Below are positions 1 through 14,070 of a stretch of 14,070 nt of DNA, one piece after another. A program made the position numbers and the translations under genes. The notes beneath the pieces were generated by a model that saw nothing but the letters and a program-made list of their open reading frames with translations, did not search any database and had not been told where the DNA came from. How positions within the stretch are numbered: position 1 is the stretch's first letter; each line of letters begins with the position of its first letter. Origin of the DNA: an uncultured Ruminococcus sp. (lineage in GTDB: Bacteria > Bacillota > Clostridia > Oscillospirales > Ruminococcaceae). The DNA lies in the NCBI GenBank assembly GCA_946183385.1, contig CAMHBN010000021.1:1-14070 (forward strand), written 5' to 3'.

Positions 1-161
1 TTGACGGGTGGGTCGATACGTCGGATATGTCGCTTCACTTATACAAGGACGAGGAATCGCAGGGGCTCACGGGCTTGGCATTTTTCGACGGCTGCTATAT
101 AATGAGATCAGGCAATAATACATTCTCAAAACTTACAGAAGAGGAGCTTGAAGCGCTATGA
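1..161 (+). CDS. C-terminal end of a sensor/lipoprotein-family protein (left-truncated by window edge)
   Basis: Reading in the frame that ends at the TGA at 159-161 gives 52 residues that closely match the C-termini of the three complete family members to the right. The shared landmarks are W-V-D-T-S-D-M-S (compare W-Y-D-L-S-D-M-S), F-D-G-C-Y-I and the final LTEEELEAL. The stop overlaps the next start as ATGA. It sits directly before a lipoprotein, just as the 1909-3327 protein sits before the 3324 lipoprotein. That suggests it is the membrane-anchored sensor/anti-sigma member of a previous cassette copy, but its N-terminus is outside the window, so it could equally be another lipoprotein. 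Function unknown. Confidence 0.85.
   Translation, partial: DGWVDTSDMSLHLYKDEESQGLTGLAFFDGCYIMRSGNNTFSKLTEEELEAL
142..157 (+). promoter_or_regulatory. Ribosome binding site embedded in the upstream gene's TEEEL codons
   Basis: AGGAG at 142-146 lies 11 bases before the ATG at 158. It is made by the Glu-Glu-Leu codons of the upstream protein's terminal motif. The same motif, at the same 11-base distance, precedes the starts at 3324 and 4451, which supports these starts and suggests translational coupling. Confidence 0.6.
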
Positions 162-1270
162 AAAAAATGATATTATCACTTGTAATCGCTGCGGTGACGC
201 TGTGCTCGTGCGGAGTTAACGTTGTGGACGGTGAAAAAGAAGCAAAAGAGGCAAAATGGGTCGATTTGCTAAGCAATTTCAACGAAAAAGGCAGGATATA
301 CGGAGAAGCTCCCAAAAAGTATATTGATTACGATACAATGAAGATTGTTCCGCTGTGTGCCAAGCCGAATTGTACTCATACCACAAGCGACTGCATAGGA
401 CACATCATCGGAGATACGCCAATACTCACCGACGATTATATCTATTATTTCAGCTCTGTTGAAGGCGTGAATGAATTAAAGAACGGAGAAAGAGAATTCT
501 ACATCAATTCCAAGCTCTGCCGTGTTTCACTTGATTCCTCCGAAACTGAAACCGTAGTCGAATTTCACGATTGTGCTCCGGCAGATTATGACGGCGTATT
601 GCTTTATGATGACAAGATTTACTTCACAGGCGATGACCTTAATCCCACCGATGACGGCTACGGAAATATAGTTTCACAAAATGTGGGAGGAGAGCATTAT
701 ATTTGCAGCATTGACCTCAAAACAAAGGAATACATAAATTACGGAACAGTGTACAGCGGAGAGGGATACTCCGACGATAGCCACGCGAATATCTGCGGAT
801 TCATAAATTCAAAGATTCTGATAAACTACCAGTGTCGTCCCGACATGACTGAAATAGACGAAAGCAAGCCATGGCGGGGACAGACCATGCTCATGTTTGA
901 ATTCGACCCTAAAACGAATGAGATAACCGAATCAGACATACCGACACGCCCTATCTCCACGAATACAAAAACGCAGACAGTCATCTATTGGGACGATGAA
1001 GCAAAGAAAACTGTTCTGATTATCGGAAACGAAAGAAGAGAGCTTGATATTGATGTCGGTACGTATGCGACAGTTTTCAATAACAAGCTGTTTGTCAGAG
1101 ATACAGGAAAGTGGTATGACCTTTCGGATATGTCAGAGCACGATATGGGTGAATACGATGAAAACGGACTATGGGTAGTTGGCGATTATTACGACGGCTG
1201 TTATATTCTCACCACTTATTTCAAAAACGTAAAACTCACAGAGAACGAGCTGCTCGCTCTCAGTAACTGA
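158..1270 (+). CDS. Lipoprotein of a CCHC-motif sensor-like family (copy A)
   Basis: 370 residues. The N-terminus is a lipoprotein signal peptide: M-K-K, a hydrophobic stretch (residues 4-15) and a lipobox L15-C16-S17-C18, so the mature protein is probably lipid-anchored outside the membrane. The C-x4-C-x-H-x4-C motif is at C67, C72, H74, C79, directly after an acidic-aromatic Y-D-T-M segment. Downstream are short repeated strand-like blocks (D-D-Y-I-Y-Y-F, I-Y-F-T-G-D-D, C-S-I-D-L-K-T) that resemble beta-propeller blades, and a conserved E-F-H-D-C. It starts inside the stop of the upstream gene (ATGA). It is paralogous to 3324-4454 along its whole length; their first 24 coding bases are identical. 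Similar motif-bearing proteins are, from memory, common and uncharacterised in gut Clostridia. It ends its operon: no overlapping gene follows. The ligand is unknown; the motif could bind zinc or form disulfides. Confidence 0.88.
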   Translation: MKKMILSLVIAAVTLCSCGVNVVDGEKEAKEAKWVDLLSNFNEKGRIYGEAPKKYIDYDTMKIVPLCAKPNCTHTTSDCIGHIIGDTPILTDDYIYYFSSVEGVNELKNGEREFYINSKLCRVSLDSSETETVVEFHDCAPADYDGVLLYDDKIYFTGDDLNPTDDGYGNIVSQNVGGEHYICSIDLKTKEYINYGTVYSGEGYSDDSHANICGFINSKILINYQCRPDMTEIDESKPWRGQTMLMFEFDPKTNEITESDIPTRPISTNTKTQTVIYWDDEAKKTVLIIGNERRELDIDVGTYATVFNNKLFVRDTGKWYDLSDMSEHDMGEYDENGLWVVGDYYDGCYILTTYFKNVKLTENELLALSN

Positions 1271-1272
1271 GC

Positions 1273-1322
1273 GTCACAGCTCCGACCAAAAACGCTATTA
1301 TATAAGCGGAACAGTTTCCGCT
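1273..1322 (+). promoter_or_regulatory. Intergenic region before the sigma operon: candidate promoter and small hairpin
   Basis: This 78-base gap separates the two cassettes. GTCACA (1273-1278), a 17-base spacer and TATTAT (1296-1301) resemble a weak housekeeping promoter. Next is a perfect 7-bp inverted repeat, AGCGGAA (1305-1311) and TTCCGCT (1316-1322) with a 4-base loop. There is no T-run after it, so it is at best a weak terminator for the upstream operon. It also contains GGAAC (1308-1312), the classical -35 core of ECF-sigma promoters, so autoregulation by the following sigma gene is possible. All assignments are by eye. Confidence 0.35.
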
Positions 1323-1348
1323 CGAATCCATAACACGGGAGAAACAAA

Positions 1349-1906
1349 ATGACAGGAAATGAACTGAGAGAGCTCATCAGCACATCTCCGACAGGCTGGC
1401 AGCGTACATTTTACGACGAGTACAAAAACTACGTCTACACTGTCGTATTCAACCGCCTGCGATGTATCGCGAACATCGAGGACATCGAGGAATGCGTCAG
1501 CGACGTCTTTGCGGACATTTTTATGCAGACCGAAAGGCTGCTGAGAATGGACGAGCTCGTCGGTATCGTGGGACTTATCGCCAAGCGCAAGGCGATTGGC
1601 TACTACCGCAGGCTGTCCGAGAAATACGGGCGCGCAGACCTCATAGACGCGCTGACGTCCGACGAGGATATGGTCGCGGACATCGAGAGATACGAGCGCA
1701 GCAGAGCTCTGCTGCGGCTGGTGAATGAGCTCGGCGAGCCCGACTCGCAGATAATACTTCTGAGCTATTACTATGGTCTGACCTCGCAGCAGATAGGCGA
1801 GAAATTGCAGATGAAGGCGGCTGCTGTCCGCAAGAGAGCAAGCCGCGCGATAAAGAAGCTGGGGGAAAAGCTGTCCGAGGTCGGACTTGACGAAAGGGAG
1901 TGGTAG
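1349..1906 (+). CDS. ECF-type RNA polymerase sigma factor
   Basis: 185 residues, the usual size of an ECF (group 4) sigma-70 factor, with only regions 2 and 4. Region 2 (about 20-95) contains F-Y-D-E-Y-K-N-Y-V-Y and an acidic I-E-D-I-E-E-C-V-S-D-V-F segment typical of the -10-recognising helix start. Region 4 (about 125-180) has D-S-Q-I-I-L-L-S-Y-Y-Y-G-L-T-S-Q-Q-I-G-E and A-V-R-K-R-A-S-R-A as its helix-turn-helix. The ATG has a good SD (GGGAG, 1337-1341, 7 bases away). The gene overlaps or abuts the next one, which encodes a membrane protein with a cytoplasmic N-terminus. This is the standard sigma/anti-sigma arrangement, so its activity is probably controlled by that partner. Target promoters are unknown; its own operon is the first candidate. 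Confidence 0.9.
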   Translation: MTGNELRELISTSPTGWQRTFYDEYKNYVYTVVFNRLRCIANIEDIEECVSDVFADIFMQTERLLRMDELVGIVGLIAKRKAIGYYRRLSEKYGRADLIDALTSDEDMVADIERYERSRALLRLVNELGEPDSQIILLSYYYGLTSQQIGEKLQMKAAAVRKRASRAIKKLGEKLSEVGLDEREW

Positions 1907-1908
1907 GA

Positions 1909-3327
1909 ATGATGAAAAATGATGTTTTTGAATTGTTCGAGCAGGCGGACGACGAGCTCCTTTCGGCGCTCACGCAGAGCTGCGAGCCGCTCGACAATGA
2001 CGCAGACAAGCGCATTTTTGCGCGTATACAGGAGAAATGCAAAGTGTCCTTCGCCGCACCTGACGAGGGATACGAGGACGTTGTAGAAGGAGTTGAAGTA
2101 ATCGTGAATAAACCATGGAAAAAGGTTCTTACTATCGCGGCAACACTGGTGGTGCTTGTCGGAGGTGTGGCAGGCGGAGCAGCTCTGCTGAATACGGTGA
2201 ACAGGCATTCACCGACGAGCATTATCGCAGATGAGGACAAGGTGACAGTTTTTTCAAACGGTCGCGGAAGCGATTACGAAAAGGGTATGCTATTCCACAA
2301 AACGGGATTGTACGGCAGCACCGTCGAATACTTCCTCGACTACGAAACTATGAAGGAAACGCCGATATGTGCAATGCCCAACTGCACGCACACGAACTCA
2401 AGCTGTCTCGCAACGCAAATGGGAGTAAACCCCGTCATTTACAATGACTATATCTACTATTTCAAGAGCTCATACAACTACAAGGACGTTCCCGAGGGAC
2501 ACCAGTTCTATATGAACAGCAAGCTGTACAAGGCAAGCCTTGATACATCGGAGACGCAGGTCGTGGTCGAATTCACCGACTGTATCCCCGACGACTGGAA
2601 CAGCGATTTTGTGCTCATCGGGAGTACGCTGTGGTTCGTAGGCGATGACAAGAATATGAAGGGTGATGACTACAGTAGGGAAATGCACTACCTGCCCTCG
2701 TCTGACACCGCGGGAGCGCACTTTATGTGCAGTATCGACCTTGATACGGGCAAGTACACCAACCACGGCGAGATATGCGAGGAGTGCAGAGCGTCGGAAT
2801 ACTGGGAGCAGTGCAACGGCGCGCATATCAAAGGCGTATACAACGGAAAGATACAGATATCGCTCCAGTACGGCATTGCTGACGCAAGTACAGATAGCAT
2901 TGATGATGTGGAGGAAAAGTATAGAACGCAAGACCCCGACGAGCGCATTTCGTTCTCGACTTATGAGTACGATACCAAAACTGGCGAGTGCGTAAAAACC
3001 GACAGGAGATTCGCTATCAATGCTACGGAGGACACCTTTGTCGGCTGTGATTACAATGCAGACGATGATGAACTGTATGTAACACACAACGGCGAAGAGC
3101 GCGTCTATGGTGAAACCGCAAATGTGTTTATCGTCGGAGATAAGCTCTTTATGTGCAGTGGCGAAGAGAATAAATGGATAGATATGAATGACTGGTCTGA
3201 GCACAAGCTGCCCGACGAATTAGGCGAATTTGTATTGCAGGTCGGATACTACAAGGACAGCTATATCTTCCTTAATTCGCAGTTTCAGGCATTCAAATAC
3301 ACCGAAGAGGAGCTGAGAGCGCTATGA
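1909..3327 (+). CDS. Probable transmembrane anti-sigma factor fused to a CCHC-family outer sensor domain
   Basis: 472 residues from the chosen ATG. Residues 1-70 are polar and acidic with no signal peptide (D-D-E-L-L-S-A-L pattern), as in Clostridial anti-sigma factors. Residues 73-94 form a single membrane helix after a positive K-P-W-K-K flank, giving an N-in/C-out topology. The outer part (about 105-472) is homologous to the neighbouring lipoproteins, with C154, C159, H161 and C166 forming C-x4-C-x-H-x4-C. It then has the Y-I-Y-Y-F, F-V-G-D-D, C-S-I-D-L and terminal Y-T-E-E-E-L blocks. I chose ATG 1909 because AGGGAG (1895-1900) sits 8 bases ahead; a GTG at 1900 would lie inside that SD. 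Position after the sigma gene suggests it binds and restrains that factor and releases it on a surface signal. That role is inferred; no known anti-sigma domain is clearly recognised. Confidence 0.8.
   Translation: MMKNDVFELFEQADDELLSALTQSCEPLDNDADKRIFARIQEKCKVSFAAPDEGYEDVVEGVEVIVNKPWKKVLTIAATLVVLVGGVAGGAALLNTVNRHSPTSIIADEDKVTVFSNGRGSDYEKGMLFHKTGLYGSTVEYFLDYETMKETPICAMPNCTHTNSSCLATQMGVNPVIYNDYIYYFKSSYNYKDVPEGHQFYMNSKLYKASLDTSETQVVVEFTDCIPDDWNSDFVLIGSTLWFVGDDKNMKGDDYSREMHYLPSSDTAGAHFMCSIDLDTGKYTNHGEICEECRASEYWEQCNGAHIKGVYNGKIQISLQYGIADASTDSIDDVEEKYRTQDPDERISFSTYEYDTKTGECVKTDRRFAINATEDTFVGCDYNADDDELYVTHNGEERVYGETANVFIVGDKLFMCSGEENKWIDMNDWSEHKLPDELGEFVLQVGYYKDSYIFLNSQFQAFKYTEEELRAL
3308..3323 (+). 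promoter_or_regulatory. Ribosome binding site embedded in TEEEL codons before the second lipoprotein
   Basis: AGGAG at 3308-3312 is 11 bases before the ATG at 3324 and is encoded by the terminal Glu-Glu-Leu codons of the sensor gene. Its geometry is identical to the sites before 158 and 4451. Confidence 0.6.
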
Positions 3328-4454
3328 AAAAAATGATATTATCACTTATAATTGCAGCGGTAACGCTGTGCTCGTGCGGAGTGAATGTCGTGAACGAAAA
3401 CAAGAGCGAGAGCAAGCCTGTTTTTATCAGATACGACCACAACGCATACGATAACGGGTATATCTACCACTATGATGATATGTATGGAAGTATGAGCGAT
3501 TTTGTTGACTTTGATACCCTTGAGTATTCGCCGCTTTGTGCGGTTCCGAACTGCAATCATAACACTTCATCGTGTTCAGCGCGTGAAATAGGCAGCTGTC
3601 CGCTGCTCTACAATGACTATATCTACTATTTTGTGTCAAACAGCGAAATCAACGAAACGAAAGACAACAGGGAATTCATAATGAACGCAAAGCTGATGAA
3701 GATGAAGCTCAAATCATCAGAAACGCAGAAAGTCGCAGAATTCCACGACTGTATTCCTGATACACATGACGGATTCGTAGTTAAGGACGACGTGTTATAC
3801 TTCCAAGCTGATGACATGAATCCGCAGCAAGACGGGTATGGCAATTTTGTTTATTCAGAAGGCGGCGGAACTCACTTCCTGTGCTCCATTGATTTAAACA
3901 GCGGTAAGTATACCAATTACGGAAGCATCTATGACGGTGACAAACAATATGAAGCGGCTAATACATCAAGCAGTGCGAGGTTAATGGGAATTCGCGGCGA
4001 TAACATTTACATTGATTACAGCTTTATGAAGGAGGAAGTTCCCGAAGAAAAATACATGAAGGAAGGCTTCCTTCTGTCGAAATGCTTTAGCCATGTTATC
4101 ATGACGTTTGATATTAATAATAAAACATTCACTGAAACTCAATACCCGAATATTTCATATGTTGATGACGATTATCTTGCATACTACAATGAAAGCGATA
4201 ATTCGGTGATTATTGAATGCGATAATGAAGAAAAAGTTATCCCCGACACCTACACAAGTTTTTATGGTCTGATCCTTGACAATAAATTCTGGAGCTATCC
4301 TGATGAAAACATATGGTATGACCTCAGCGATATGTCAAAGCACGGAAAAGGTCATGACGGAGATATTCTGGGTTATTACAACGGAAAGTATATCGTTAAA
4401 ACTATAGGAATGAATTTCAAGGCTTTAACAGAAGAGGAGCTGAAATCACAATGA
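3324..4454 (+). CDS. Lipoprotein of the CCHC-motif sensor-like family (copy B)
   Basis: 376 residues. Signal peptide M-K-K-M-I-L-S-L-I-I-A-A-V-T with lipobox L15-C16-S17-C18, nearly identical to copy A at 158. C72, C77, H79 and C84 give the C-x4-C-x-H-x4-C motif. Other shared blocks are Y-N-D-Y-I-Y-Y-F, E-F-H-D-C-I-P, H-F-L-C-S-I-D-L and the ending L-T-E-E-E-L-K-S-Q. It overlaps the sensor gene and the ATPase gene, each as ATGA. It is visibly more AT-rich than the sigma and ABC genes around it. The protein probably sits on the outer membrane face beside the homologous domain of the anti-sigma protein. It may act as co-sensor, as a competing ligand binder, or as the receptor of the ABC transporter. 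No function is established. Confidence 0.88.
   Translation: MKKMILSLIIAAVTLCSCGVNVVNENKSESKPVFIRYDHNAYDNGYIYHYDDMYGSMSDFVDFDTLEYSPLCAVPNCNHNTSSCSAREIGSCPLLYNDYIYYFVSNSEINETKDNREFIMNAKLMKMKLKSSETQKVAEFHDCIPDTHDGFVVKDDVLYFQADDMNPQQDGYGNFVYSEGGGTHFLCSIDLNSGKYTNYGSIYDGDKQYEAANTSSSARLMGIRGDNIYIDYSFMKEEVPEEKYMKEGFLLSKCFSHVIMTFDINNKTFTETQYPNISYVDDDYLAYYNESDNSVIIECDNEEKVIPDTYTSFYGLILDNKFWSYPDENIWYDLSDMSKHGKGHDGDILGYYNGKYIVKTIGMNFKALTEEELKSQ
4435..4450 (+). promoter_or_regulatory. Ribosome binding site embedded in TEEEL codons before the ABC ATPase
   Basis: AGGAG at 4435-4439 is 11 bases before ATG 4451, again inside the Glu-Glu-Leu codons of the lipoprotein's C-terminus. Third instance of the same arrangement. 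Confidence 0.6.
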
Positions 4455-5188
4455 ACAAACTCGAACTGCAAAAGATAAACAAGCACTACGGAAAAAAGCA
4501 CGCACTGTGCGATTTCTCGTACTCTTTCACCAACGGGATATACGGTCTGCTCGGACCGAATGGCGCAGGCAAATCCACGCTGATGAATATGATAACGGAC
4601 AACCTCCTCCCCGACCCCGACGGCGGAAAGATACTGTGGAACGGCGAGGAAACACGCCTGCTCAAAGACAGCTTCCGCAGCCGACTCGGCTTCATGCCGC
4701 AGCAGCAGAACCTCTACGAGAGCATGACAGCGTACACGTTTCTGAGCTACATCGCCTCGCTGAAATGCCTCGACCGCAAGTCCGCGGAAGACGAAATACC
4801 GCGCATGATCTCGCGCGTGGAGCTCACCGAGAGCGCGGACAAAAAAATGGGCGGCTTCTCGGGCGGAATGAAGCAGAGAGTGCTTATCGCAGCGGCAATG
4901 CTCGGCGACCCCGACCTCCTCATTCTCGACGAGCCGACCGCTGGTCTCGACCCGAAGCAACGCGTCATCATACGCAACATGGTGTCCGACCTCGGGCAGG
5001 AAAAAATCATCATCATCTCGACGCACATCGTCTCCGACATCGAAACGATAGCGAAGGAAATCCTCTTCATCAAGGAGGGACACCTCATCGACAGCGGTAC
5101 TATCCCCGCACTCGTCGAGAATGTCACGGACGCCGAAAAATCACTTGAAAACCTGTATATGCAGTACTACGGCGAGGTGCAGAAATGA
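4451..5188 (+). CDS. ABC transporter ATP-binding protein
   Basis: 245 residues, one complete ABC ATPase domain. Walker A G-P-N-G-A-G-K-S-T at 35-43, Q-loop near Q84, signature F-S-G-G-M-K-Q at 136-142, Walker B L-L-I-L-D-E-P at 156-162, D-loop G-L-D at 165-167 and switch His192 (S-T-H). It looks like the CcmA/NatA/drug-export type that pairs with ABC-2 permeases, and the next gene is such a permease, starting inside its stop codon. It should power export or a mechanical step at the membrane. The substrate cannot be told from sequence. Cotranscription with the sigma, anti-sigma and lipoprotein genes is indicated by ATGA overlaps at both ends. Confidence 0.93.
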   Translation: MNKLELQKINKHYGKKHALCDFSYSFTNGIYGLLGPNGAGKSTLMNMITDNLLPDPDGGKILWNGEETRLLKDSFRSRLGFMPQQQNLYESMTAYTFLSYIASLKCLDRKSAEDEIPRMISRVELTESADKKMGGFSGGMKQRVLIAAAMLGDPDLLILDEPTAGLDPKQRVIIRNMVSDLGQEKIIIISTHIVSDIETIAKEILFIKEGHLIDSGTIPALVENVTDAEKSLENLYMQYYGEVQK

Positions 5189-7386
5189 GGCTTATCATCA
5201 CCGAGCTGAAAAAGCTTTTCAGCCGAGAAATTTTCGTACTAATGCTCGCTGCGGTGTTCATTCTGAATGCGTATCTGCTGTTCAGGACTGCGAGCTCGGG
5301 CGAGGCTACGGTCTCGGATTATCGCGCTGTCTACTCCGCGATAGAGGGTATGCCCGACGACGAAAAGCTCGCGTGGCTGGACGCGCGGCTGCAGGAATAC
5401 TCGGGACAGCACAGGTACGATTTCGACGTTCTGCACGAGCTCCGCGAGGAGTGCGACGGCGTCGTGAACTATCAGGACTTCCTCGAAAGCATACGCGCGC
5501 AGGCGGACTCTATGACGGCAGTTTCCATCTTCGCAAAGCCCGATACGTTCAACTACCGCAGCATACTGAAAACGCCTCCTGCCTATGAGAATGTACAGGA
5601 CGTAGTGCCGGTTTTCGACGTATCGAAGGGCTTGACACTTGCGACTGACAACAGCTTCACGGACATTCTCTGCGGCTTCATACTGCTTTTTTCGGTGCTG
5701 TCGATCATGCTGTACGACCGCGAGCAGGGCATGAGCGGACTGCTCTTCTCGATGAGGCGCGGACGCGGCTACCTGATAATGACGAAGCTCGCAGCGCTCG
5801 CGATAACACTGCTCGGAGCGGTGCTGCTCATATACATCGAGAACCTCATCATCGGGGGCATACTCTACGGGCTCGGCGACCTTATGCGCCCGATACAGTC
5901 GGTGAGCGGCTTCATCGGCTGCAATCTGCGAATAAATGTATGGGAGTACCTGATACTGTACGTTCTGTTCAAATTCATCGCTTTTTTCTGTATCGGAGCT
6001 GTGCTCTCGCTTATCGCTGTCAACACGAGAAACACCGTCAGCTTTTACGGTATATCGGCGGCTGTCATCATCGTTGAGGGAGTGCTGTATGTGCTTATCC
6101 ATCCGCTTTCGATATACAGCATTTTCCGCTATATCAACCTCATCGCGTTCACGAAGGTCAACGAGGTCTTCTGCAACTACAAAAACATCAACTTCTTCGA
6201 GCAGCCCGTCCCGCTCGTACCGACAGCTCTCTCTGCACTGATAATAATCACGGCGACCTGCTGCTTCCTTTCCTCGTATCACTACTCGAAAAAGCGCAAC
6301 CTCGAATTTCGCAGACTCGGCTTCAAGCGCGGTCTCGGCAGAGGTAAGCGCGTTCATTCGCAGCTGTGGTACACGCTGTACAAGTCGCTGATATTGCAGA
6401 AGGGAGCGCTCGTTATCTCCGTATTCATAGTTGTATCGGTGTTTATGTCGCAGACCTTCTACAAGAAATACGACCAGGCGGACGTTTACTACGAATACTA
6501 CACCGAGAAAGCCGAGGGACGTATCACCGCAGAAACTCTCGACTTTTTCGAGAGTGAAAAGGAGCGGTTTGAAGACTTGCAGACACAGCTTGACGAGCTC
6601 CGGCAAAATGAGCCTTCCAACTATACCGCGCAAAACGAGCTGAGTAAGCAGCTTGCACCGACTATGGGCTTCAATCCCGCATACGAGCGATTGCAGCAGA
6701 TAAAGGACATTGACGGCGCATATATGTTCTATGATACGGGCTACAAGCGAGCGCTCGGGAAGGCGGGCTACGACGACGATATGAAGTACGCGCTCGCGGC
6801 GATGTTCCTTCTTCTGTTCCTTGTCTCGCCGCTCATCGCGAACGACAACAAGTACAGGATGAGCTTCATCATAAGCTCCACGGCTTCGGGAAAGCAGAGC
6901 TATATCCGCCGCAATCTGCTCACGGCGGCGCTGTACGGTCTGCTCGCGGCACTGATATGGATACTCCCCTACTCCGTCACAATTTCGCAGTATTACGGTA
7001 ACGGACGACTGCTCGGCTCGCTGAAAAGCATCACCGATTTCGCAGACTTCCCGCTTAATATGAAGCTGTGGCAGTATGTGCTGCTCGTTGCGGCACTCCG
7101 CATATTGTTCGTCATCGTATCCGCACTTGTAATGCTGTGGGTGTCGTCGCGGTGCAGGAACACGACCTCCGCCGTGCTCATCAATTTCGCTGTATTTGTT
7201 CTCCCTATAATCGTGTATCTGCTTGGCGCAAAGGTAATGGTCAACATCGGATTCTGTCCGCTGCTCAGCGTGAATGTAGTTCTCAACAGCTTCTCATTCC
7301 TCCATATTTCGATTGTTATAATCGGTATCGCAGTGCCGGCTGCACGCCCGATTTTAAGTATGCTAAAGCGAAAAATAGCAAACTAA
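5185..7386 (+). CDS. ABC-2-type permease with two homologous halves
   Basis: 733 residues, about twice a simple ABC-2 permease. Helix 1 (about 15-34) is followed by a ~120-residue outer domain and then five helices up to ~366. A positive linker (about 367-395) follows. The pattern then repeats: helix at ~402-422, an outer domain rich in Glu/Gln/Tyr, and five more helices to the end. Halves align: W-E-Y-L-I-L-Y with W-Q-Y-V-L-L-V, and N-T-R-N-T-V-S with R-C-R-N-T-T-S. So one chain probably supplies the whole membrane part, served by two copies of the preceding ATPase. The SD GAGGTG (5174-5179) lies 5 bases before the ATG. It is the last gene of the operon, with a hairpin terminator 31 bases after the stop. 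Substrate unknown. Confidence 0.85.
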   Translation: MRLIITELKKLFSREIFVLMLAAVFILNAYLLFRTASSGEATVSDYRAVYSAIEGMPDDEKLAWLDARLQEYSGQHRYDFDVLHELREECDGVVNYQDFLESIRAQADSMTAVSIFAKPDTFNYRSILKTPPAYENVQDVVPVFDVSKGLTLATDNSFTDILCGFILLFSVLSIMLYDREQGMSGLLFSMRRGRGYLIMTKLAALAITLLGAVLLIYIENLIIGGILYGLGDLMRPIQSVSGFIGCNLRINVWEYLILYVLFKFIAFFCIGAVLSLIAVNTRNTVSFYGISAAVIIVEGVLYVLIHPLSIYSIFRYINLIAFTKVNEVFCNYKNINFFEQPVPLVPTALSALIIITATCCFLSSYHYSKKRNLEFRRLGFKRGLGRGKRVHSQLWYTLYKSLILQKGALVISVFIVVSVFMSQTFYKKYDQADVYYEYYTEKAEGRITAETLDFFESEKERFEDLQTQLDELRQNEPSNYTAQNELSKQLAPTMGFNPAYERLQQIKDIDGAYMFYDTGYKRALGKAGYDDDMKYALAAMFLLLFLVSPLIANDNKYRMSFIISSTASGKQSYIRRNLLTAALYGLLAALIWILPYSVTISQYYGNGRLLGSLKSITDFADFPLNMKLWQYVLLVAALRILFVIVSALVMLWVSSRCRNTTSAVLINFAVFVLPIIVYLLGAKVMVNIGFCPLLSVNVVLNSFSFLHISIVIIGIAVPAARPILSMLKRKIAN

Positions 7387-7471: not shown

Positions 7472-9517
7472 TTATTTTCTTTCTTTGATGATACCTTTAC
7501 TGCAAAAGTAGGTCACAAGGAAGTATCCGCCGTAGATAAGGAGGAGCATTGAAGCCGTCAAGCCTACCGAGCTCGCTATGCTGTTCGTGCCGAATACTTG
7601 CAGGAAGAATATAAGGAATTTCATTCCGAATACAGAGTGTATCGCCGCAAGCACGAGAGGAAGCAGGAAGAATATGCCTGTCTGACGTAAGAGCGAGCGT
7701 GAGATGTCGCGCTCGTCTGCGCCTATCTTGCGGAGCATCTCGTATCTGCCTATACTGTCTACGCTGTCCGAGAGCTCCTTCAGAGCGAGGATAGCTCCGC
7801 ACGCGATGAGGAATACCATTCCTACGTACAGACCGAGGAAGGCTACTATCGCGCCGAGACCGACTGCGGCTTCCTTTATCTCGAGCTTTGTCGTCCACCC
7901 GTAGCCTTGGATATGGTCGTTTTCAGAGTTTTCAGTAGCTGAAATATTGCGCATTACCATGTCGAAATCGTCGTGAACCTTCTGCTCGGTGGCTTCCTTG
8001 TCGTCGGAGCTGTAATCTCCGATAAAGTATTCGGTATCGGGAGTTTCGCCGCTGACAATGCTGTCGGGGACTACTATCAAGCCCGCGTTGATGTGCTCTG
8101 TCGAGATGTCGATGAAGCCGTCCTGACAGTCAGCGTATTTAGACTTCAATATGTGTCCGAAGATCGTGCGCTCGCTGCCGACCGACAGTGATTTATTGCG
8201 GAGGTTGGTCATTGAGGTGTAGTTGCACAGCATGATGAATTCGTCGTCATCCATGCTGAGCTTTTCCCTTCCGTAGAGCTCCATCAGCGAGTTGTAGTCG
8301 CTCAGGCGGATAAGCTGCTCGGGTGTGTCGTATTGCAGAAAGGCATACTGCGCCTTTGCGTCCTCGAACGCTTCGCCAAGTGAATCCGCAAAAAGAAACT
8401 CCGGGTCGGTGTAAGTCGTGAAATTGACGTAGTCGGAAAAGTCCTCTGTTATGTCGTAGCCGTTTTCGGTGCAGAGCTCGGTAATATCACTGTACTTGCT
8501 CTCCACACTTGTATCGTAGCCAATGACGAGCTCGAAGTCTACGGGACATAGCTCGTTGAGGTTCCTGTTCATCGAATTACGTATCGAAAACGCCGACGAG
8601 AGAGTGCATATCGTGATAAACAGCATAAGACAGATAACAGTCATTGAAAACACCATCGTGTTGACCTTGCTGCTGAGCTGACGGAAGGTGAAGCTGTTAA
8701 GTCCGCTGAAATAGGTGTTCTTCATGCTCATAAGCACACGCAGGAGCATTCCCGATACCGACCAGAATATGAGGAAGGTCGCGGCACAGCCGGCAATAAA
8801 TATTGCAATGGCGCTGTTGCGCTCTATCTTGACCGAACGCCAGCCAACCTGATAGTAAAGGAAGCCCAGCAGAGCTGCCGCGAGTATGAAAACTATCACG
8901 CAGAGCACGGGATTCTTCAGCTTTATCTGCTCCGAACGCTTGCCCGACTGCATGAGGTTTATCAGCTTCATTCGCGTGACAACAAAGCTGTTGAACACCA
9001 TTACCACGAGGTACATCACAGCAAAGTAGACTACAGTTTTTACCATTGCTCCGCCCGATACCGTGAACTTGTACGACGTCATATCCGCCTCGAACATATT
9101 CGCGACAAGTGCGCTCGTAAGCTGTGAAAGTCCGATACCGATGACAAGTCCCACGAAAAGTGAGCCGACGCCTATTATGAGGGTTTCGAGCAGGAGTATC
9201 GCCGATATCTTTCGCTTGCTCATTCCAAGCGTCATATACAGTGCAAATTCGCGGTTGCGGCGCTTCATCAGGAAGCGGCTCGCGTATACTATCAGCAGAC
9301 CGAGAACTCCCGCAACGAATACGCTCGTACCCGATATCAGCGTTTCGAGGAGGCGTATCATCTCGTACTGTGAATCGGACATTTCAAGCATTGCCGCCTG
9401 TCCGCCTATCGCGTTGAACACGTAGAACACGGACACGCCTATAATAAGCGTAAAGAAGTATATAGCATAGTCCCGCATACTTCTGCGGATATTGCTGAGA
9501 GAAAGCTTAAAGAGCAT
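7472..9517 (-). CDS. Bce-type ABC transporter permease (FtsX family)
   Basis: 681 residues. It starts with the typical [11 protein letters not shown] then helix 1 (about 17-37). Further helices are at ~58-78, 108-130, 155-180, 203-222, 236-260 and 285-310. A large outer domain of roughly 240 residues follows (about 315-555), then three C-terminal helices. Ten helices with the big outer domain between helices 7 and 8 is the BceB/VraG hallmark. The first FtsX segment has R-E-F-A-L-Y-M-T-L-G-M-S-K-R-K. Family members sense peptide antibiotics such as bacitracin or lantibiotics, signal through the kinase and free the cell-wall target. The start overlaps the ATPase end by 11 bases; its SD is the GGGAGGTGA sequence (plus-strand 9526-9534). 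The peptide recognised cannot be predicted. Confidence 0.9.
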   Translation of the reverse strand: MLFKLSLSNIRRSMRDYAIYFFTLIIGVSVFYVFNAIGGQAAMLEMSDSQYEMIRLLETLISGTSVFVAGVLGLLIVYASRFLMKRRNREFALYMTLGMSKRKISAILLLETLIIGVGSLFVGLVIGIGLSQLTSALVANMFEADMTSYKFTVSGGAMVKTVVYFAVMYLVVMVFNSFVVTRMKLINLMQSGKRSEQIKLKNPVLCVIVFILAAALLGFLYYQVGWRSVKIERNSAIAIFIAGCAATFLIFWSVSGMLLRVLMSMKNTYFSGLNSFTFRQLSSKVNTMVFSMTVICLMLFITICTLSSAFSIRNSMNRNLNELCPVDFELVIGYDTSVESKYSDITELCTENGYDITEDFSDYVNFTTYTDPEFLFADSLGEAFEDAKAQYAFLQYDTPEQLIRLSDYNSLMELYGREKLSMDDDEFIMLCNYTSMTNLRNKSLSVGSERTIFGHILKSKYADCQDGFIDISTEHINAGLIVVPDSIVSGETPDTEYFIGDYSSDDKEATEQKVHDDFDMVMRNISATENSENDHIQGYGWTTKLEIKEAAVGLGAIVAFLGLYVGMVFLIACGAILALKELSDSVDSIGRYEMLRKIGADERDISRSLLRQTGIFFLLPLVLAAIHSVFGMKFLIFFLQVFGTNSIASSVGLTASMLLLIYGGYFLVTYFCSKGIIKERK

Positions 9518-10271
9518 CGCTCATGTCACCTCCCAGCAGAGTCACAACGTCGATTATCCTGTCGAAGAACTGCTTGCGGGTGTTGTCTCCGCGGCTGAGT
9601 TCGCTGAATATTTTGCCGTCCTTGATGAAGATGATACGGCTCGCGTAGCTTGCGGTGAAGCTGTCGTGAGTTACCATCATTATTGTAGCTCCACACTCTC
9701 TGTTGAGGTAGCGGAAGCGCTCGAGCAGGAGCTTTGCCGATTTTGAGTCAAGCGCGCCTGTGGGCTCGTCCGCGAGCACGAGCTTGGGACTTGTAACTAT
9801 TGCGCGTGCCGAGGCTACACGCTGTTTTTGTCCGCCCGACATCTGGTACGGGTACTTGCTCAGCACATCTTTGATGTCGAGCTGTTCGGATACCTTCTTT
9901 ACTGCGGCGTCTATCTCATTTGCCGACTGTTTCTGTATCGACAAGGCAAGAGCGATGTTCTCATAAGCTGTCAGCGTGTCGAGGAGGTTGAAGTCCTGAA
10001 AGATGAAGCCGAGATTGTCACGGCGGAATTTGTTCAGCGCCTTGCCCTTGAGCGCGGTCACGTCTGTGCCTTCAAGGAAGATGTGTCCCGCTGTAACGCG
10101 GTCTATGGTGGATATGCAGTTGAGGAGAGTGGTCTTGCCGCTTCCCGAGGCTCCCATTATAGCGACGAACTCTCCCTTGTCCACTGAGAATGAGATATCG
10201 TCAATCGCCTTTGTGAGGCTCGACTTGCTCCCGTAGTATTTTTCTATCTGCTGTATTTTGAGTAATTCCAT
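9507..10271 (-). CDS. Bce-type ABC transporter ATP-binding protein
   Basis: 254 residues from the chosen start. Walker [10 protein letters not shown] at 40-48, Q92 in the Q-loop, signature S-G-G-Q-K-Q-R at 145-151, Walker B L-V-L-A-D-E-P at 164-170 and switch His202. D-E-P-T-G-A-L-D is typical of the MacB/LolD/BceA class that works with FtsX permeases, and the next gene is one. The reading frame is open to an ATG at 10301. I prefer the one at 10271 because AAAGGAG is 9 bases ahead of it, while the upstream ATG lies inside the candidate -10 box. The gene is separated from the kinase gene by ~100 bases holding an operator, so it can be induced apart from the regulator genes. Confidence 0.92.
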
Positions 10272-10296
10272 TGTCAACAGCTCCTTTCTGTATACT

Positions 10297-10302
10297 ATCA
10301 TA
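10297..10302 (-). promoter_or_regulatory. Candidate -10 box of the ATPase-permease promoter
   Basis: On the minus strand this reads TATGAT. No good -35 hexamer is seen 17 bases upstream, which fits a promoter that needs an activator. The operator at 10344-10361 would be centred about 60 bases ahead of the start site. Chosen by eye. Confidence 0.45.
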
Positions 10303-10334
10303 CAGCATTTCCGCGTGCGCGTCGCTGTTTTAAT

Positions 10335-10361
10335 CTTACAGTACCTTACAATTTTGTAAGG
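10335..10361 (-). promoter_or_regulatory. Bce-type response-regulator operator
   Basis: 10344-10361 reads CCTTACAATTTTGTAAGG, an 8-2-8 perfect inverted repeat. It contains TTACA-ATTT-TGTAA (10346-10359), an exact match to the TNACA-N4-TGTAA consensus known for BceR-like regulators. A further half-site CTTACA lies exactly 10 bases away (10335-10340), one helical turn from the copy at 10345, on the side nearer the ATPase gene. It stands six bases after the kinase stop and ahead of the ATPase gene, as in known Bce modules. Confidence 0.8.
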
Positions 10362-10367
10362 TCGGAG

Positions 10368-11363
10368 CTACTCAAATTTGTAGAGCTCGTTCTTGCCGAA
10401 GGTTATGGATATCTCGGTAAATTCACCCTGTACGGAGCTCGCTTCAACTGTGTGCCCGAGCCTGTCACACAGCTTCTTGACGATATACAATCCCATGCCC
10501 GTGGATTTGTTATGCGTGCGCCCGTTCTCGCCAGTAAACGATTTCTCGAAGATTTGCGGAAGGTCACTTTCGGGTATTCCAATACCATTGTCGCGGAAGT
10601 GCAGAACTGTCCTGTCCGGGAAGTCCTCCCCTGTCACGATTATTTCTGTCGCGCCGTACTTCAGGCTGTTGCTCATAAGCTGTCCGAGTATAAACGAGAG
10701 CCATTTGCCGTCGGTCATAACTTCGGCTTCGAGGTCGGACGTACTGAGGGATATCCCGCGCTCTTGGAGCTCCTCACGATTCCTGACTGCAATCTCCCCG
10801 AATGTGCGTTTGAGGGATACGGGCTTAATAATGTAGTCCTTCTCTGCGCTTCCGCTGCGGGCGTAATAGAGGACATTCTCGATATACTCGTCGATACGCC
10901 TGAGCTGCTCATTATAGCGCGTATTTCCGTCGTTGTGACACATAAGCTGCAAGCCCGCCACGGGAAGCTTTATCTCGTGGACCCACAGCTCGATGTATTC
11001 GCGGAAATCCGAGCTCTCTCGGCGGTACTCGGCGATGTGCTCGCACATAGACTTGTCAGCCTCGCGTATGGCTTCGTAAAGAATGTGTCCATCGAGGAAT
11101 TCGGGCTCATCCAGCATCTCGGACAACAGGTACTTCTTATCGAGCTGAGAGAGGTCGGACACAAGCTTGTCATAGTAGCTTCTCTTGCGCAGGAAAGCCC
11201 ACAGTTCGGCAGCAACAGCTCCGAGTAGCACAAGTATGCTCACGATGATTACTGCTTCTGCGGGGACATGGAAAGCGAAAAGGAAAATGAGCACAAGTAC
11301 CCAAGTTATCGCATATATCAGGTAGGCTGTCAGCCTGTCGCGCATGAATTCAGTCAGTCTCAT
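10368..11363 (-). CDS. Intramembrane-sensing histidine kinase, BceS-like
   Basis: 331 residues. Two helices (about 12-32 and 36-56) are joined by only a few residues, so there is no real outer sensor domain, as in BceS-type kinases that take their signal from the transporter. The phosphoacceptor is His129 in W-V-H-E-I-K-L-P-V-A. The ATPase region follows: N-box at N232 (S-N-S-L-K-Y-G-A), G1 D-N-G-I-G-I-P at 258-264 and G2 G-M-G-L-Y-I-V at 289-295. The start overlaps the response-regulator stop as ATGA, so the two are translationally coupled. It should phosphorylate that regulator when the neighbouring permease meets its peptide. Confidence 0.93.
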   Translation of the reverse strand: MRLTEFMRDRLTAYLIYAITWVLVLIFLFAFHVPAEAVIIVSILVLLGAVAAELWAFLRKRSYYDKLVSDLSQLDKKYLLSEMLDEPEFLDGHILYEAIREADKSMCEHIAEYRRESSDFREYIELWVHEIKLPVAGLQLMCHNDGNTRYNEQLRRIDEYIENVLYYARSGSAEKDYIIKPVSLKRTFGEIAVRNREELQERGISLSTSDLEAEVMTDGKWLSFILGQLMSNSLKYGATEIIVTGEDFPDRTVLHFRDNGIGIPESDLPQIFEKSFTGENGRTHNKSTGMGLYIVKKLCDRLGHTVEASSVQGEFTEISITFGKNELYKFE

Positions 11364-12022
11364 TTAAGTATATACCCCTGCTTCTTACGTGTTTCTATCG
11401 CGTCGGGATAGCCGAGCTCCGCAAGCTTTCCGCGCAGGCGGCTGATATTGACAGACAATGCATTGTCGTTCACAAATTCGTCGTTGTCCCACAGAGCTGT
11501 CATCAACTCATCGCGGGTCACTATCTCGCCCATACGGTCGAGCAGGAGTTGAAATATTATCATTTCATTTTTTGTGAGTATCAGCTCTGTGCCATTACGT
11601 ACAAGACTGCCCTTTACCGTGCTGACCTCGGCTTCGTGGTACTTCTGCACTGTTGCGTTCTTTGCTGAGCGTTTCAGCACTGCCGAGATACGAAGCAGCA
11701 GGATAGTCGGATTATAGGGCTTTGTGATATAATCGTCCGCACCGTAGCTTATGGACAGCACTTCGTCGATCTCATTGGTGCGGCTGGTCAGCATTATGAC
11801 AGGAGTTTCGCTTCTCCTGCGGAATTCCTGCAAAAGCGTTTCGCCGTTGACATTCGGAAGATTGATATCAAGCAGTATCAGGTCGGCGTCGGCGTCTTTC
11901 ATCTGCTCCGATACATTATCATAGTTCGTTACACAAACCGTTTCATAGCCTGCATTTTGAAGCAATACCGCCAGTTCATCACGCAGGGCGCTTTCATCTT
12001 CTATTATTATGATTTTTTTCAT
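11360..12022 (-). CDS. OmpR-family response regulator, BceR-like
   Basis: 220 residues. The receiver domain (1-118) has acidic pair E8/D9, phosphoacceptor D52 (L-L-D-I-N-L-P), T79 in L-T-S and K101 in T-K-P-Y. The C-terminal winged helix (about 128-220) has L-T-K-N-E-M, the recognition region N-A-L-S-V-N-I-S-R-L-R-G-K-L and the final hairpin K-K-Q-G-Y-I-L-K. It probably binds the inverted repeat at 10344-10361 to switch on the ATPase-permease genes. The SD is AGGAG, 9 bases before the ATG. No copy of the operator is seen before this gene, so autoregulation is not indicated. Confidence 0.94.
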   Translation of the reverse strand: MKKIIIIEDESALRDELAVLLQNAGYETVCVTNYDNVSEQMKDADADLILLDINLPNVNGETLLQEFRRRSETPVIMLTSRTNEIDEVLSISYGADDYITKPYNPTILLLRISAVLKRSAKNATVQKYHEAEVSTVKGSLVRNGTELILTKNEMIIFQLLLDRMGEIVTRDELMTALWDNDEFVNDNALSVNISRLRGKLAELGYPDAIETRKKQGYILK

Positions 12023-12145: not shown

Positions 12146-13246
12146 TTACATCTGTTCGCTTATCCATATATTTGCGCGGTTCTGTATTACATCTACGGTC
12201 GTGTCGATATCCTGCTCGCCTTTCAGGTACGCGAGCACCTCGTACTCGACTATGTTGAAGAGCTCGCGGTCAGTGCCTGCTCCCCAGCGGTCTATGGAGC
12301 TGACATAGTCGTCCATGAAGTCGATATCGGCTTGCGTGAGGTTGTCCTTGCAGACCTTGTTCTGCACCGACAGGGTATAGTTCACGTTATCGTAGTAGCC
12401 GCTCATAAAGCGCTCCGCCGTCGTTTTGCGGGCGGCGTTGTTTATCGGGAAGCCGCTCAGTATCGTCCATGTTTTGGCGGGCTGACCGTTCTCATGGTCG
12501 GTGTACTCGTTGGCTTGTGCGAAGTTTTCAAGCTGAAACTCCTCAAGGTAGAATTCGCGAATGAACTTCCAAGCCGCCTCCTGCTTGTCTTCGGAGATAT
12601 TGGCGCGAATGGAGATATCGCCGAAACCACCGCCTCCGTTAAGGTATGCTCCTCTGCCGTCGGAGGTCGGGAAGCCGACGAGGGTCATCTCGCCGTCGCG
12701 GATATGCGGGTAACCGACGGTGTTGTTTGCATAGTCCACGTCCTCGTAAATTGCGCCGTTGTAGCCCCATATCCTGTACAGCTCGACGAGGTTCGGTCTG
12801 GATTGGTCATAGGCGCCTTCCAGCTTCTGACCCATATTGCTCTCGAAGCCCTTGCAGAATTCGAGCATTTTGCGGAAGTCGGGGTGGTCGAAGTGGGTCT
12901 CGAATTTGTCGTAGTCGATGAACGCGGAGGTGTTAGCCCTCAGCACATCGTAGTAGATGTACTCGGCGGTTAGGCTGTGATTCACCATTGAGCCCGCGGG
13001 CATTGCATTCCAGCGGTCAACGAACTCGTCAATTGTCCAGTTCTGCTTAGTGCCAACGTATTCGGACTTGCCTATCATCGTGTTCACGATATAATAGGTC
13101 GGAATAGAGTAGAGCCTGCCCTCGTATTCGCAGAGGTCGAGGATATGGCTGTTGAGGGTGTCGCGGTTGACCTCGGGGTCGTCCTCCATGAATTTGTACA
13201 GGTCGGCGAAGGCGCCCTTGCGCTTGAATATCTCAAACTTTGCGGG
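12146..13246 (-). CDS. Extracellular solute-binding protein of an ABC importer, C-terminal part (5'-truncated)
   Basis: About 365 residues of a family-1 solute-binding protein, normally ~430-550 residues with a lipoprotein signal. Visible family traits are the N-terminal-lobe segment G-A-F-A-D-L-Y-K-F-M-E-D-D-P-E-V, Y-S-I-P-T-Y-Y, W-T-I-D-E-F-V-D-R-W-N, G-G-G-G-F-G-D-I-S-I and the helix A-A-W-K-F-I-R-E-F-Y. An internal ATG at 13189 exists, but homologous-looking sequence continues for ~18 codons upstream, so that is not the real start. The signal peptide and first lobe are missing. Similarity stops at about 13240-13250, where a plus-strand leuD fragment begins. No importer permease genes are adjacent. 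The ligand is probably a sugar, but unproven. Confidence 0.75.
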   Translation of the reverse strand, partial: PAKFEIFKRKGAFADLYKFMEDDPEVNRDTLNSHILDLCEYEGRLYSIPTYYIVNTMIGKSEYVGTKQNWTIDEFVDRWNAMPAGSMVNHSLTAEYIYYDVLRANTSAFIDYDKFETHFDHPDFRKMLEFCKGFESNMGQKLEGAYDQSRPNLVELYRIWGYNGAIYEDVDYANNTVGYPHIRDGEMTLVGFPTSDGRGAYLNGGGGFGDISIRANISEDKQEAAWKFIREFYLEEFQLENFAQANEYTDHENGQPAKTWTILSGFPINNAARKTTAERFMSGYYDNVNYTLSVQNKVCKDNLTQADIDFMDDYVSSIDRWGAGTDRELFNIVEYEVLAYLKGEQDIDTTVDVIQNRANIWISEQM

Positions 13247-13247
13247 A

Positions 13248-13385
13248 TTGCAGAAAGAATTTTTCGAGATTAACGGTTATAAAAAGTACTGCCTTGAAAA
13301 TGCGCTTGACGATATAGACTATCTCTTGGAGAATAAATCTAAGATTGAAAAGTACGAACAAGAAAATAGGTTTGACATGCGATGA
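13248..13385 (+). pseudogene. leuD: C-terminal fragment of 3-isopropylmalate dehydratase small subunit
   Basis: The last 45 codons match the LeuD C-terminus. F-F-E-I-N-G-Y-K-K-Y-C-L-E-N-A-L-D-D-I-D-Y-L-L and I-E-K-Y-E align with E. coli LeuD (recalled) F-T-I-D-A-F-R-R-H-C-M-M-N-G-L-D-S-I-G and I-A-A-Y-E. The rest of the ~165-200 residue protein is absent: upstream sequence is antisense solute-binding protein. LeuD is the swivel subunit of isopropylmalate isomerase in leucine synthesis, and this piece alone cannot work. The reading frame stays open to an ATG at 13152, which is incidental. The stop overlaps the next start as ATGA, an intact leu operon junction. Confidence 0.7.
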
Positions 13386-14070
13386 AGCAGAACATACATC
13401 CGTTCATCGAAATCATGGATACTACTTTGCGTGATGGAGAACAGACGCAAAATGTATCGTTTGTGCCACATGAGAAACTGGCTATAGCCCGACTTCTTTT
13501 GCAAAGTCTGAATGTTGACAGAATTGAAGTTGCCTCAGCCCGGATTTCCGAAGGCGAAAAAGAAGCTGTCTCGCTCATATGCCGATGGGCATCAGACAAT
13601 GGCCTTTTAGACCGCGTCGAAGTACTGGGTTTTGTGGACGGAACGCAGTCTGTCGACTGGTTAAAGGAGTGTGGCTGCAAGAATCTCAATCTGCTTTGCA
13701 AAGGTTCTCTCACTCATTGCCTTTACCAACTGAAAAAACAGCCCGAAGAACATATTGACGACATTTTAAAAACAATAGAATACGCTGACAAATCGGGCAT
13801 TAATGTCAATGTTTACCTTGAAGACTGGAGCAACGGCATGAAAGAATCGACGGAGTATGTCTATCAGTTGATGGACTCGCTTCAAGCGACACCGGTCAAA
13901 AGGTTTATGCTTCCTGACACGCTCGGAATACTAAATCCGTTGAATGTCATCGAATATATGCGCAAGATGGTGAAGCGTTACCCAAGACGTCATTTCGATT
14001 TTCATGCACATAATGATTACGACCTCGCCATTTCCAACGTCCTGGCAGCAGTTCTCAGCGGTTGTCAAGG
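13382..14070 (+). CDS. 2-isopropylmalate synthase / HMGL-like family enzyme, N-terminal part (runs off right edge)
   Basis: The first 229 residues of a ~500-residue enzyme. The barrel motif D-T-T-L-R-D-G-E-Q is at 13-21, and the metal-binding H-A-H-N-D is at 208-212 (H208, H210). R-I-E-V-A-S-A-R, G-F-V-D-G and M-L-P-D-T-L-G-I-L lie between. The family joins acetyl-CoA to a 2-keto acid; isopropylmalate synthase is the best guess because leuD precedes it, but citramalate or homocitrate synthase activity is possible. From memory it most resembles the second LeuA-type gene that follows leuD in Bacteroidota. The start at 13382 gives the 4-base overlap with leuD; its SD is weak. Composition is more AT-rich than the sigma and ABC genes of the left part. 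Confidence 0.85.
   Translation, partial: MKQNIHPFIEIMDTTLRDGEQTQNVSFVPHEKLAIARLLLQSLNVDRIEVASARISEGEKEAVSLICRWASDNGLLDRVEVLGFVDGTQSVDWLKECGCKNLNLLCKGSLTHCLYQLKKQPEEHIDDILKTIEYADKSGINVNVYLEDWSNGMKESTEYVYQLMDSLQATPVKRFMLPDTLGILNPLNVIEYMRKMVKRYPRRHFDFHAHNDYDLAISNVLAAVLSGCQ

Follow-up and report, generated by a model that had tools for sequence, protein, structure and literature searches.

A sigma-factor sensor in Ruminococcus whose outer domain was probably captured from a lipoprotein of a transporter operon

Where might a membrane-bound partner of a sigma factor obtain the domain that it exposes outside the cell? This question is raised by a stretch of 14,070 nucleotides (nt) of an uncultured Ruminococcus sp. 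(contig CAMHBN010000021.1, here C21, from contig base 1), referred to below as the window and belonging to a fragmentary genome assembly (334 contigs, 75% complete). An operon in the window carries genes for an extracytoplasmic function (ECF) sigma factor, a one-helix membrane sensor, a lipoprotein (lip2), and the ATPase and permease of an ATP-binding cassette (ABC) transporter, with a second lipoprotein gene (lip1) upstream (coordinates in the table). The initial annotation, made from the letters alone, had described these genes and their overlapping junctions, and both are confirmed by open reading frames, profile matches and 4-nt overlaps at 158-161, 3324-3327, 4451-4454 and 5185-5188; the gap between the sigma and sensor genes is 2 nt, provided that the sensor starts at the ATG at 1909.

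The answer suggested by the comparisons is that the outer domain came from a lipoprotein. It had been claimed that the sensor shares the fold of the lipoproteins beside whose ABC operon it stands, and homology searches and trees support this: both lipoproteins are homologues of the sensor (phmmer E-values of 9.6e-50 with lip1 and 5.9e-53 with lip2 as the query), and its outer domain is modelled as a beta-propeller. Residues C154, C159, H161 and C166 are invariant in all 78 proteins of an alignment selected from 112 database proteins and four proteins from fetched loci. The architecture of a head followed by a propeller occurs in 15 database proteins (P0091-P0105), including P0095, which is identical to the sensor of R. 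flavefaciens MC2020, and P0098, which has one head and then two propellers. The outer domains of the 17 sensor rows in the tree (window, MC2020 and P0091-P0105) form a single group (Shimodaira-Hasegawa-like approximate likelihood ratio test, SH-aLRT, 99) that is nested among lipoproteins, which points to a probable capture of the outer domain from a lipoprotein; the lipoproteins nearest to this group in the first tree are P0106 and P0107. In a second tree, a lipoprotein encoded directly before its ATPase in the locus G228 groups within the broader clade to which the sensors belong (support 100), so that the head probably replaced a lipoprotein signal peptide in place, a step read from this one locus, and the remaining ATPase-proximal lipoproteins are scattered. 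Both trees are quick and midpoint-rooted, and the second one omits L040 and the order-level rows.

The other end of the sensor belongs to a different family. Its first ~110 residues, the anti-sigma-like head with the membrane helix, have relatives in 54 of 60 genus genomes, with up to 28 per genome, and a sigma gene lies directly upstream of 87 of the 88 distinct heads in the examined loci, at gaps from -35 to +17 nt, the 88th (L027) being a shortened copy of the head in the window; 60 further places were taken from the best matches listed, and weak-scoring heads are under-sampled. The sigma factor of the window is assigned to the ECF type, which comprises only regions 2 and 4 in about 190 residues, by TIGR02937 (57.5 bits against a cut-off of 42.9) and PF08281, and its region 2 appears divergent, because PF04542 does not match it but matches 17 of the 23 family members scanned at E<=0.001. 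No Pfam or NCBIfam family matches the sensor over cut-off, and among 25 heads scanned no Pfam family is matched by more than two at E<=0.1; DUF4179 passes its cut-off in none of 40 genus genomes and scores below it in 10, with one head at 0.023. The outer domains of 86 heads fall into 11 single-linkage clusters at E<1e-5 (sizes 44, 20 and 10, four of 2 and four of 1), and the propeller cluster of these head-bearing proteins comprises the window genome and MC2020 only. Distances between sigma factors and between their heads are correlated (r=0.774, n=87; maximum of 2,000 shuffles 0.160), also within genomes (r=0.697, 120 pairs; shuffles up to 0.558) and after leaving out the five most divergent sigma factors (r=0.766, n=82; within genomes 0.649, 98 pairs, shuffles up to 0.600). 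A partnership of sigma factor and head is well supported by these comparisons.

The two ends of the sensor also seem to have had separate histories. In MC2020 the gene order is lipoprotein, sigma factor, sensor, ATPase and permease, with no lipoprotein between sensor and ATPase. Between the window and MC2020, the sigma factors are 57.3%, the ATPases 93.5% and the permeases 77.7% identical, and within the sensor the cytoplasmic head shows 56% and the outer domain 89% identity; MC2020 and P0104 present the reverse pattern, with 98% in the head and 64% in the outer domain. To judge from these identities, sigma factor and head changed together in the window-MC2020 pair, separately from the outer domain; no sigma factor is known for P0104, and the joint change is seen for the window-MC2020 pair.

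The output genes are part of a module of propeller lipoprotein, ATPase and ~730-residue permease, which is widespread in the genus and also found across the order, where 20 of the 24 permease-matching places beyond the window were examined. A propeller gene precedes the ATPase in 14 of 14 genus loci (a count that leaves out L109 and L110, with permease fragments only, and in which L108 is the other half of the L107 permease), and sigma factor and sensor sit in the module in two of them. As for the proposed ABC-2 type of the transporter, the ATPase is clear by PF00005, and the membrane permease matches neither a Pfam or NCBIfam family over cut-off nor, in sequence comparison at E<=1, any protein of solved structure; lip1 and lip2 likewise have no Pfam family over cut-off. 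The initial annotation had proposed co-conservation of all five genes as a check, and this expectation holds for the lipoprotein and ABC genes, which co-occur widely, and fails for the sigma factor with propeller sensor, found in 2 of 125 genus genomes, so that with the deviating order of MC2020 the five-gene set is not a conserved unit. It is instead a lineage-specific joining of two older modules, namely the genus-wide sigma/head family and the lipoprotein-ATPase-permease module. In another family, kinase- and response-regulator-like genes read from the sequence adjoin the module (L087 11506-13394 and L088 11405-13371).

These observations can be brought together in a mechanism in which the cytoplasmic head of a one-helix anti-sigma factor would hold the ECF sigma factor, and the outer propeller, whose source would be one of the transporter operon's own lipoproteins, probably that encoded immediately ahead of the ATPase, would meet an extracellular ligand and thereby cause the sigma factor to be released. 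The freed sigma factor would then transcribe the genes for sigma factor, sensor, lipoprotein, ATPase and permease, while at the cell surface the lipoproteins would bind ligands of that same class, which the ABC transporter would remove or export. That a captured-domain anti-sigma sensor switches on an immunity- or export-like lipoprotein/ABC operon is mildly favoured, on the basis of the genes present, the pairing of sigma factor and head, the position of the outer domain among lipoproteins, separate histories and lipoprotein-ABC linkage. Such an arrangement suggests that the cell senses an outside agent with a copy of the protein that it uses to deal with that agent.

Patterns upstream of the sigma genes bear on the proposed autoregulation. 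Of 87 sigma genes, 10 have the pattern GTCACA-N13-17-CG upstream, whereas 200 resampled sets average 0.18 such cases and never exceed 2. In both the window and MC2020 its end lies 54 nt ahead of the sigma ATG, but the single site at 1273-1294 is a weak candidate for an autoregulated promoter because plus-strand copies of the pattern lie within genes at 6976, 7512 and 9541, and one more copy is on the minus strand. The stricter GTCA-N16-20-CGAG is present in 15 of the 87 upstream regions (resampled maximum 2), in neither the window nor MC2020. For the sigma family as a whole, this suggests autoregulated ECF promoters of several types, with the proviso that nine patterns were tried, all chosen after inspection of the same upstream sequences. 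Some other patterns shared by the paralogous sigma genes are the promoter-like TGAAAGC, upstream of 38 of 87 (resampled maximum 5), and TGTTACGTTT, upstream of 6 (resampled maximum 1), five of which fall in outer-domain cluster 1.

What the ligand might be is approached through the neighbours of the lipoproteins. Elsewhere in the genus, many propeller lipoprotein genes have directly upstream, at gaps of 28-341 nt, a gene for a small protein of ~120 residues, whose signal peptide is conserved while the mature part varies, and which has a near-invariant His; in scans of nine of these proteins, Pfam and NCBIfam gave no match over cut-off, to bacteriocin families or any others. There are 19 hits below 1e-14 in 125 genus genomes, and 18 lie directly upstream of a propeller lipoprotein on the same strand, the sole exception being G029:C3; in a wider tally of 55 genomes, many of the matches are weak and cover nothing but the signal peptide. 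Counted from the other side, in 22 genus stretches, 18 of 39 non-sensor propeller genes have the small neighbour and 21 do not, four of the latter lying within 160 nt of a contig end. Small-protein and lipoprotein distances are correlated when an alignment-based cut of the signal peptide is used (r=0.804, n=18, 0/5000 permutations; within genomes 0.565, 17/5000), and a crude cut gave r=0.760 (within genomes 0.546, 44/5000); co-duplication would equally produce such a correlation. The mature part is modelled as all-beta, a predicted beta-sandwich (block predicted local distance difference test, pLDDT, 88-97), with no clear solved structural match; lactococcin 972 is absent among the matches listed, and its family PF09683 matches 0 of 9 small proteins.

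The distribution of this pairing is uneven. Neither the window genome nor MC2020 has a small-protein hit at E<=0.001, and the module stands there without the partner; the family was also not detected by profile in the order-level loci examined. In an Oscillospiraceae genome, a small protein and a lipoprotein are found under the close locus tags Q4F95_02175 and Q4F95_02180. AgrB is encoded beside the module in L039 (Pfam, E 7.8e-34), and AgrB-like genes occur in four more loci, by a profile built from the same five. In L100 1-9545 (G267:C71), four small-protein genes alternate with four lipoprotein genes, followed by ATPase and permease, and the signal peptides in this tandem array are nearly identical while the mature parts are divergent. 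A member of the same small-protein family outside the genus, P0123, is labelled Holdemanella sp., which suggests horizontal spread or a mislabelled record.

Several readings of the module compete on this evidence. A specific form of the captured-sensor explanation, possible though on the unlikely side, is toxin immunity: the small proteins would be bacteriocin-like, the lipoproteins would neutralise them, the transporter would expel them and the sensor would detect the toxins of rivals. The position of 18 of the 19 strong hits, the correlated distances (r=0.804), the conserved signal peptides with variable mature parts, the alternating array of L100 and the AgrB and AgrB-like genes argue for it, whereas no toxic activity is known for the small proteins, the nine scanned match no bacteriocin family, the two sensor-carrying genomes are without a hit, more than half of the non-sensor propeller genes (21/39) lack the small gene, and co-duplication gives the same correlation. 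The invariant C-C-H-C residues, as a putative metal-binding motif, together with a module that spans the order where no small gene was detected in the loci examined, would fit the handling of a nutrient, a metal or a cell-envelope compound, the small proteins being incidental neighbours; this is somewhat doubtful, as only 1 of 19 strong small-gene hits lies away from a lipoprotein. It is rather improbable that the small proteins serve as signals or as structural parts of the surface and that the module secretes, displays or recycles them while the sensor reports on the process: their signal peptides and the Agr-type genes near the module in five loci agree with this, but a Sec-type signal peptide removes the need for a dedicated exporter, and the window and MC2020 have the module and no small gene. 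Finally, the fragmentary state of the genome could hint at two unrelated operons joined during metagenome assembly, which is very improbable given the 15 database proteins with head and propeller; for the order sigma-sensor-ATPase-permease, an artefact is refuted by the independent MC2020 record, and the position of lip2 is seen in the window contig only.

The captured-sensor explanation has its own difficulties, and the following points weigh against it. The combination of sigma factor and propeller sensor is rare (2/125); capture in place has the single locus G228 in its favour, and in the window lip2 separates sensor and ATPase; and the head has no match over cut-off to any curated anti-sigma family in the Pfam and NCBIfam scans. 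Once the outer domain is accounted for, the partial correlation of sigma factor and head in the three largest clusters of outer domains is 0.54, 0.89 and -0.22, and co-duplication of neighbouring genes alone also yields sigma-head distance correlations. The GTCACA pattern, picked post hoc, is missing from 77 of 87 upstream regions and recurs by chance in the window. To name a small toxin-like protein as the ligand of the sensor is bold, being directly supported by neither sensor-carrying genome. The most far-reaching version, that a sigma/head cassette took the place of an immunity lipoprotein's signal peptide within its own locus, that an incoming small secreted toxin, recognised by the immunity-derived propeller, then induces further immunity lipoproteins and the expelling transporter, and that heads and outer domains are reshuffled to give new specificities with the same output, is speculative and unlikely to hold in full.

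Some similarities can be observed between this locus and known systems. As in standard pairs of ECF and single-helix anti-sigma factors, a sigma gene is followed by a one-helix protein and the two co-vary; unlike them, the head here has no curated family, the outer domain is common to lipoproteins of the same operon, and a large paralogous family carries exchangeable outer domains. A table in PMC8999054 lists an R. albus member in the numbered group ECF262. The RsgI-type sensors of cellulosome producers, as described in PMC11557425, resemble the present family in their one-helix anti-sigma layout, outer sensing part and several paralogues per genome, but pair with sigma-I rather than ECF sigma factors; according to the same source, a dedicated set of RsgI receptors is confined to cellulosome producers of the Acetivibrio type. 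Pfam scans of sensor and heads revealed no RsgI domain, and sigma-I is absent among the matches listed for the window sigma factor (best 25 of 67 families), which fits the ECF superfamily model. Lactococcin 972-like loci such as streptococcin B scbABC (PMC11796350) encode a bacteriocin with a beta-sandwich fold, presumed to leave the cell by the Sec route, next to genes predicted to serve immunity and transport, in that case under competence (peptide) control; they differ in that the small proteins of the window's relatives have no PF09683 match and a propeller lipoprotein is present. In the available text of a rumen bacteriocin survey (PMC13289728), lactococcin 972-like peptides are named once and MC2020 is not named. 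The 7-bladed propeller-like protein EUBREC_1955 (PDB 3s25) has a similar fold, a likeness that alone shows no function. Among six window genes scanned, no Pfam or NCBIfam lantibiotic family was over cut-off. LanI is a lipoprotein. Lantibiotic self-immunity by LanI and LanFEG (PMC4828448) combines an immunity protein with an ABC transporter, but here the lipoprotein is a propeller and there is one large permease.

No description of this sigma/sensor/lipoprotein/ABC composition was found in a search of titles and abstracts, with subscription journals mostly outside its coverage. The locus illustrates, at the level of sequence, how a sigma-factor sensor can arise, by joining a stock head to a ready-made outer domain from the sensor's output operon. 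Additionally, the literature searched held no description of the genus-wide ECF sigma/anti-sigma head family with exchangeable outer domains, or of the module of small secreted protein, propeller lipoprotein and ABC transporter, in places linked to Agr-type genes. Parts of the head family and of the module are present in the cultured strain MC2020 and hence testable.

The idea of a duplicated cassette, in which the gene clipped at the left edge of the window was the end of a second sensor, was not borne out, as the clipped gene looks like another lipoprotein. Its top match among 136 family members is the lipoprotein P0088 (88% over 51 residues), followed by the second propeller of P0098 (55%) and the MC2020 lipoprotein (54%), and these three belong to one common lipoprotein clade in the tree; since P0098 is a double-propeller sensor, the tail alone leaves some room for the clipped gene being a sensor. 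The apparent duplication at lip1 and lip2 is, by alignment, a shared junction of start and signal peptide: 65 of the first 75 nt agree, against 29 and 30 in the next two 75-nt blocks (ungapped), and the signal peptides are nearly the same while the mature parts fall in different clades.

Contig C205 of the same genome (L041 1-4270, G000:C205) has a lipoprotein gene running off its right end, with P0088 as the top match (61%, in another part of the gene than the window's clipped tail, same clade), and may be the left neighbour of the window. It also holds a sigma-head pair on the minus strand with the outer domain cut off, and a 747-residue protein. A protein of ~750 residues is encoded near propeller lipoproteins in both sensor-carrying genomes (L031 5742-8036 and L041 1074-3317) and carries the solute-binding domain PF01547, over cut-off in L031 only; window 12146-13189 resembles it by eye only, with no Pfam match.

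Table 1. Features of the sigma factor, sensor and transporter locus in the window
Feature	Position	Strand	Basis
Clipped C-terminal end of a propeller-family gene, most like lipoprotein P0088	3..161	+	translation, comparison
lip1, propeller lipoprotein, CAKPNCTHTTSDC motif	158..1270	+	open reading frame, homology, tree
Promoter-like GTCACA-N14-CG	1273..1294	+	pattern search; 3' end 54 nt before sigma ATG
ECF sigma factor	1349..1906	+	TIGR02937, PF08281
Sensor residues 1-110: anti-sigma-like head and single membrane helix	1909..2238	+	genus-wide family member
Sensor outer domain, predicted beta-propeller, CAMPNCTHTNSSC motif (whole sensor 1909..3327)	2239..3327	+	structure model; nested among lipoproteins in trees
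lip2, propeller lipoprotein, CAVPNCNHNTSSC motif	3324..4454	+	open reading frame, homology, tree
ABC ATPase	4451..5188	+	PF00005
Membrane permease, 733 residues	5185..7386	+	open reading frame; without family match

Tail to tail with the sigma-permease operon, on the minus strand at 7472-12022, Pfam domains identify an FtsX-type permease (681 residues), an ABC ATPase, a histidine kinase and a response regulator, a four-gene set that resembles a Bce-type antimicrobial-peptide module. SapS is the top NCBIfam match of this histidine kinase, below cut-off, and no such four-gene set is beside the sensor operon in the gene list of the MC2020 locus. At the far end of the window, 13382-14068 on the plus strand holds the start of an HMGL-type (citramalate/isopropylmalate synthase-like) gene.

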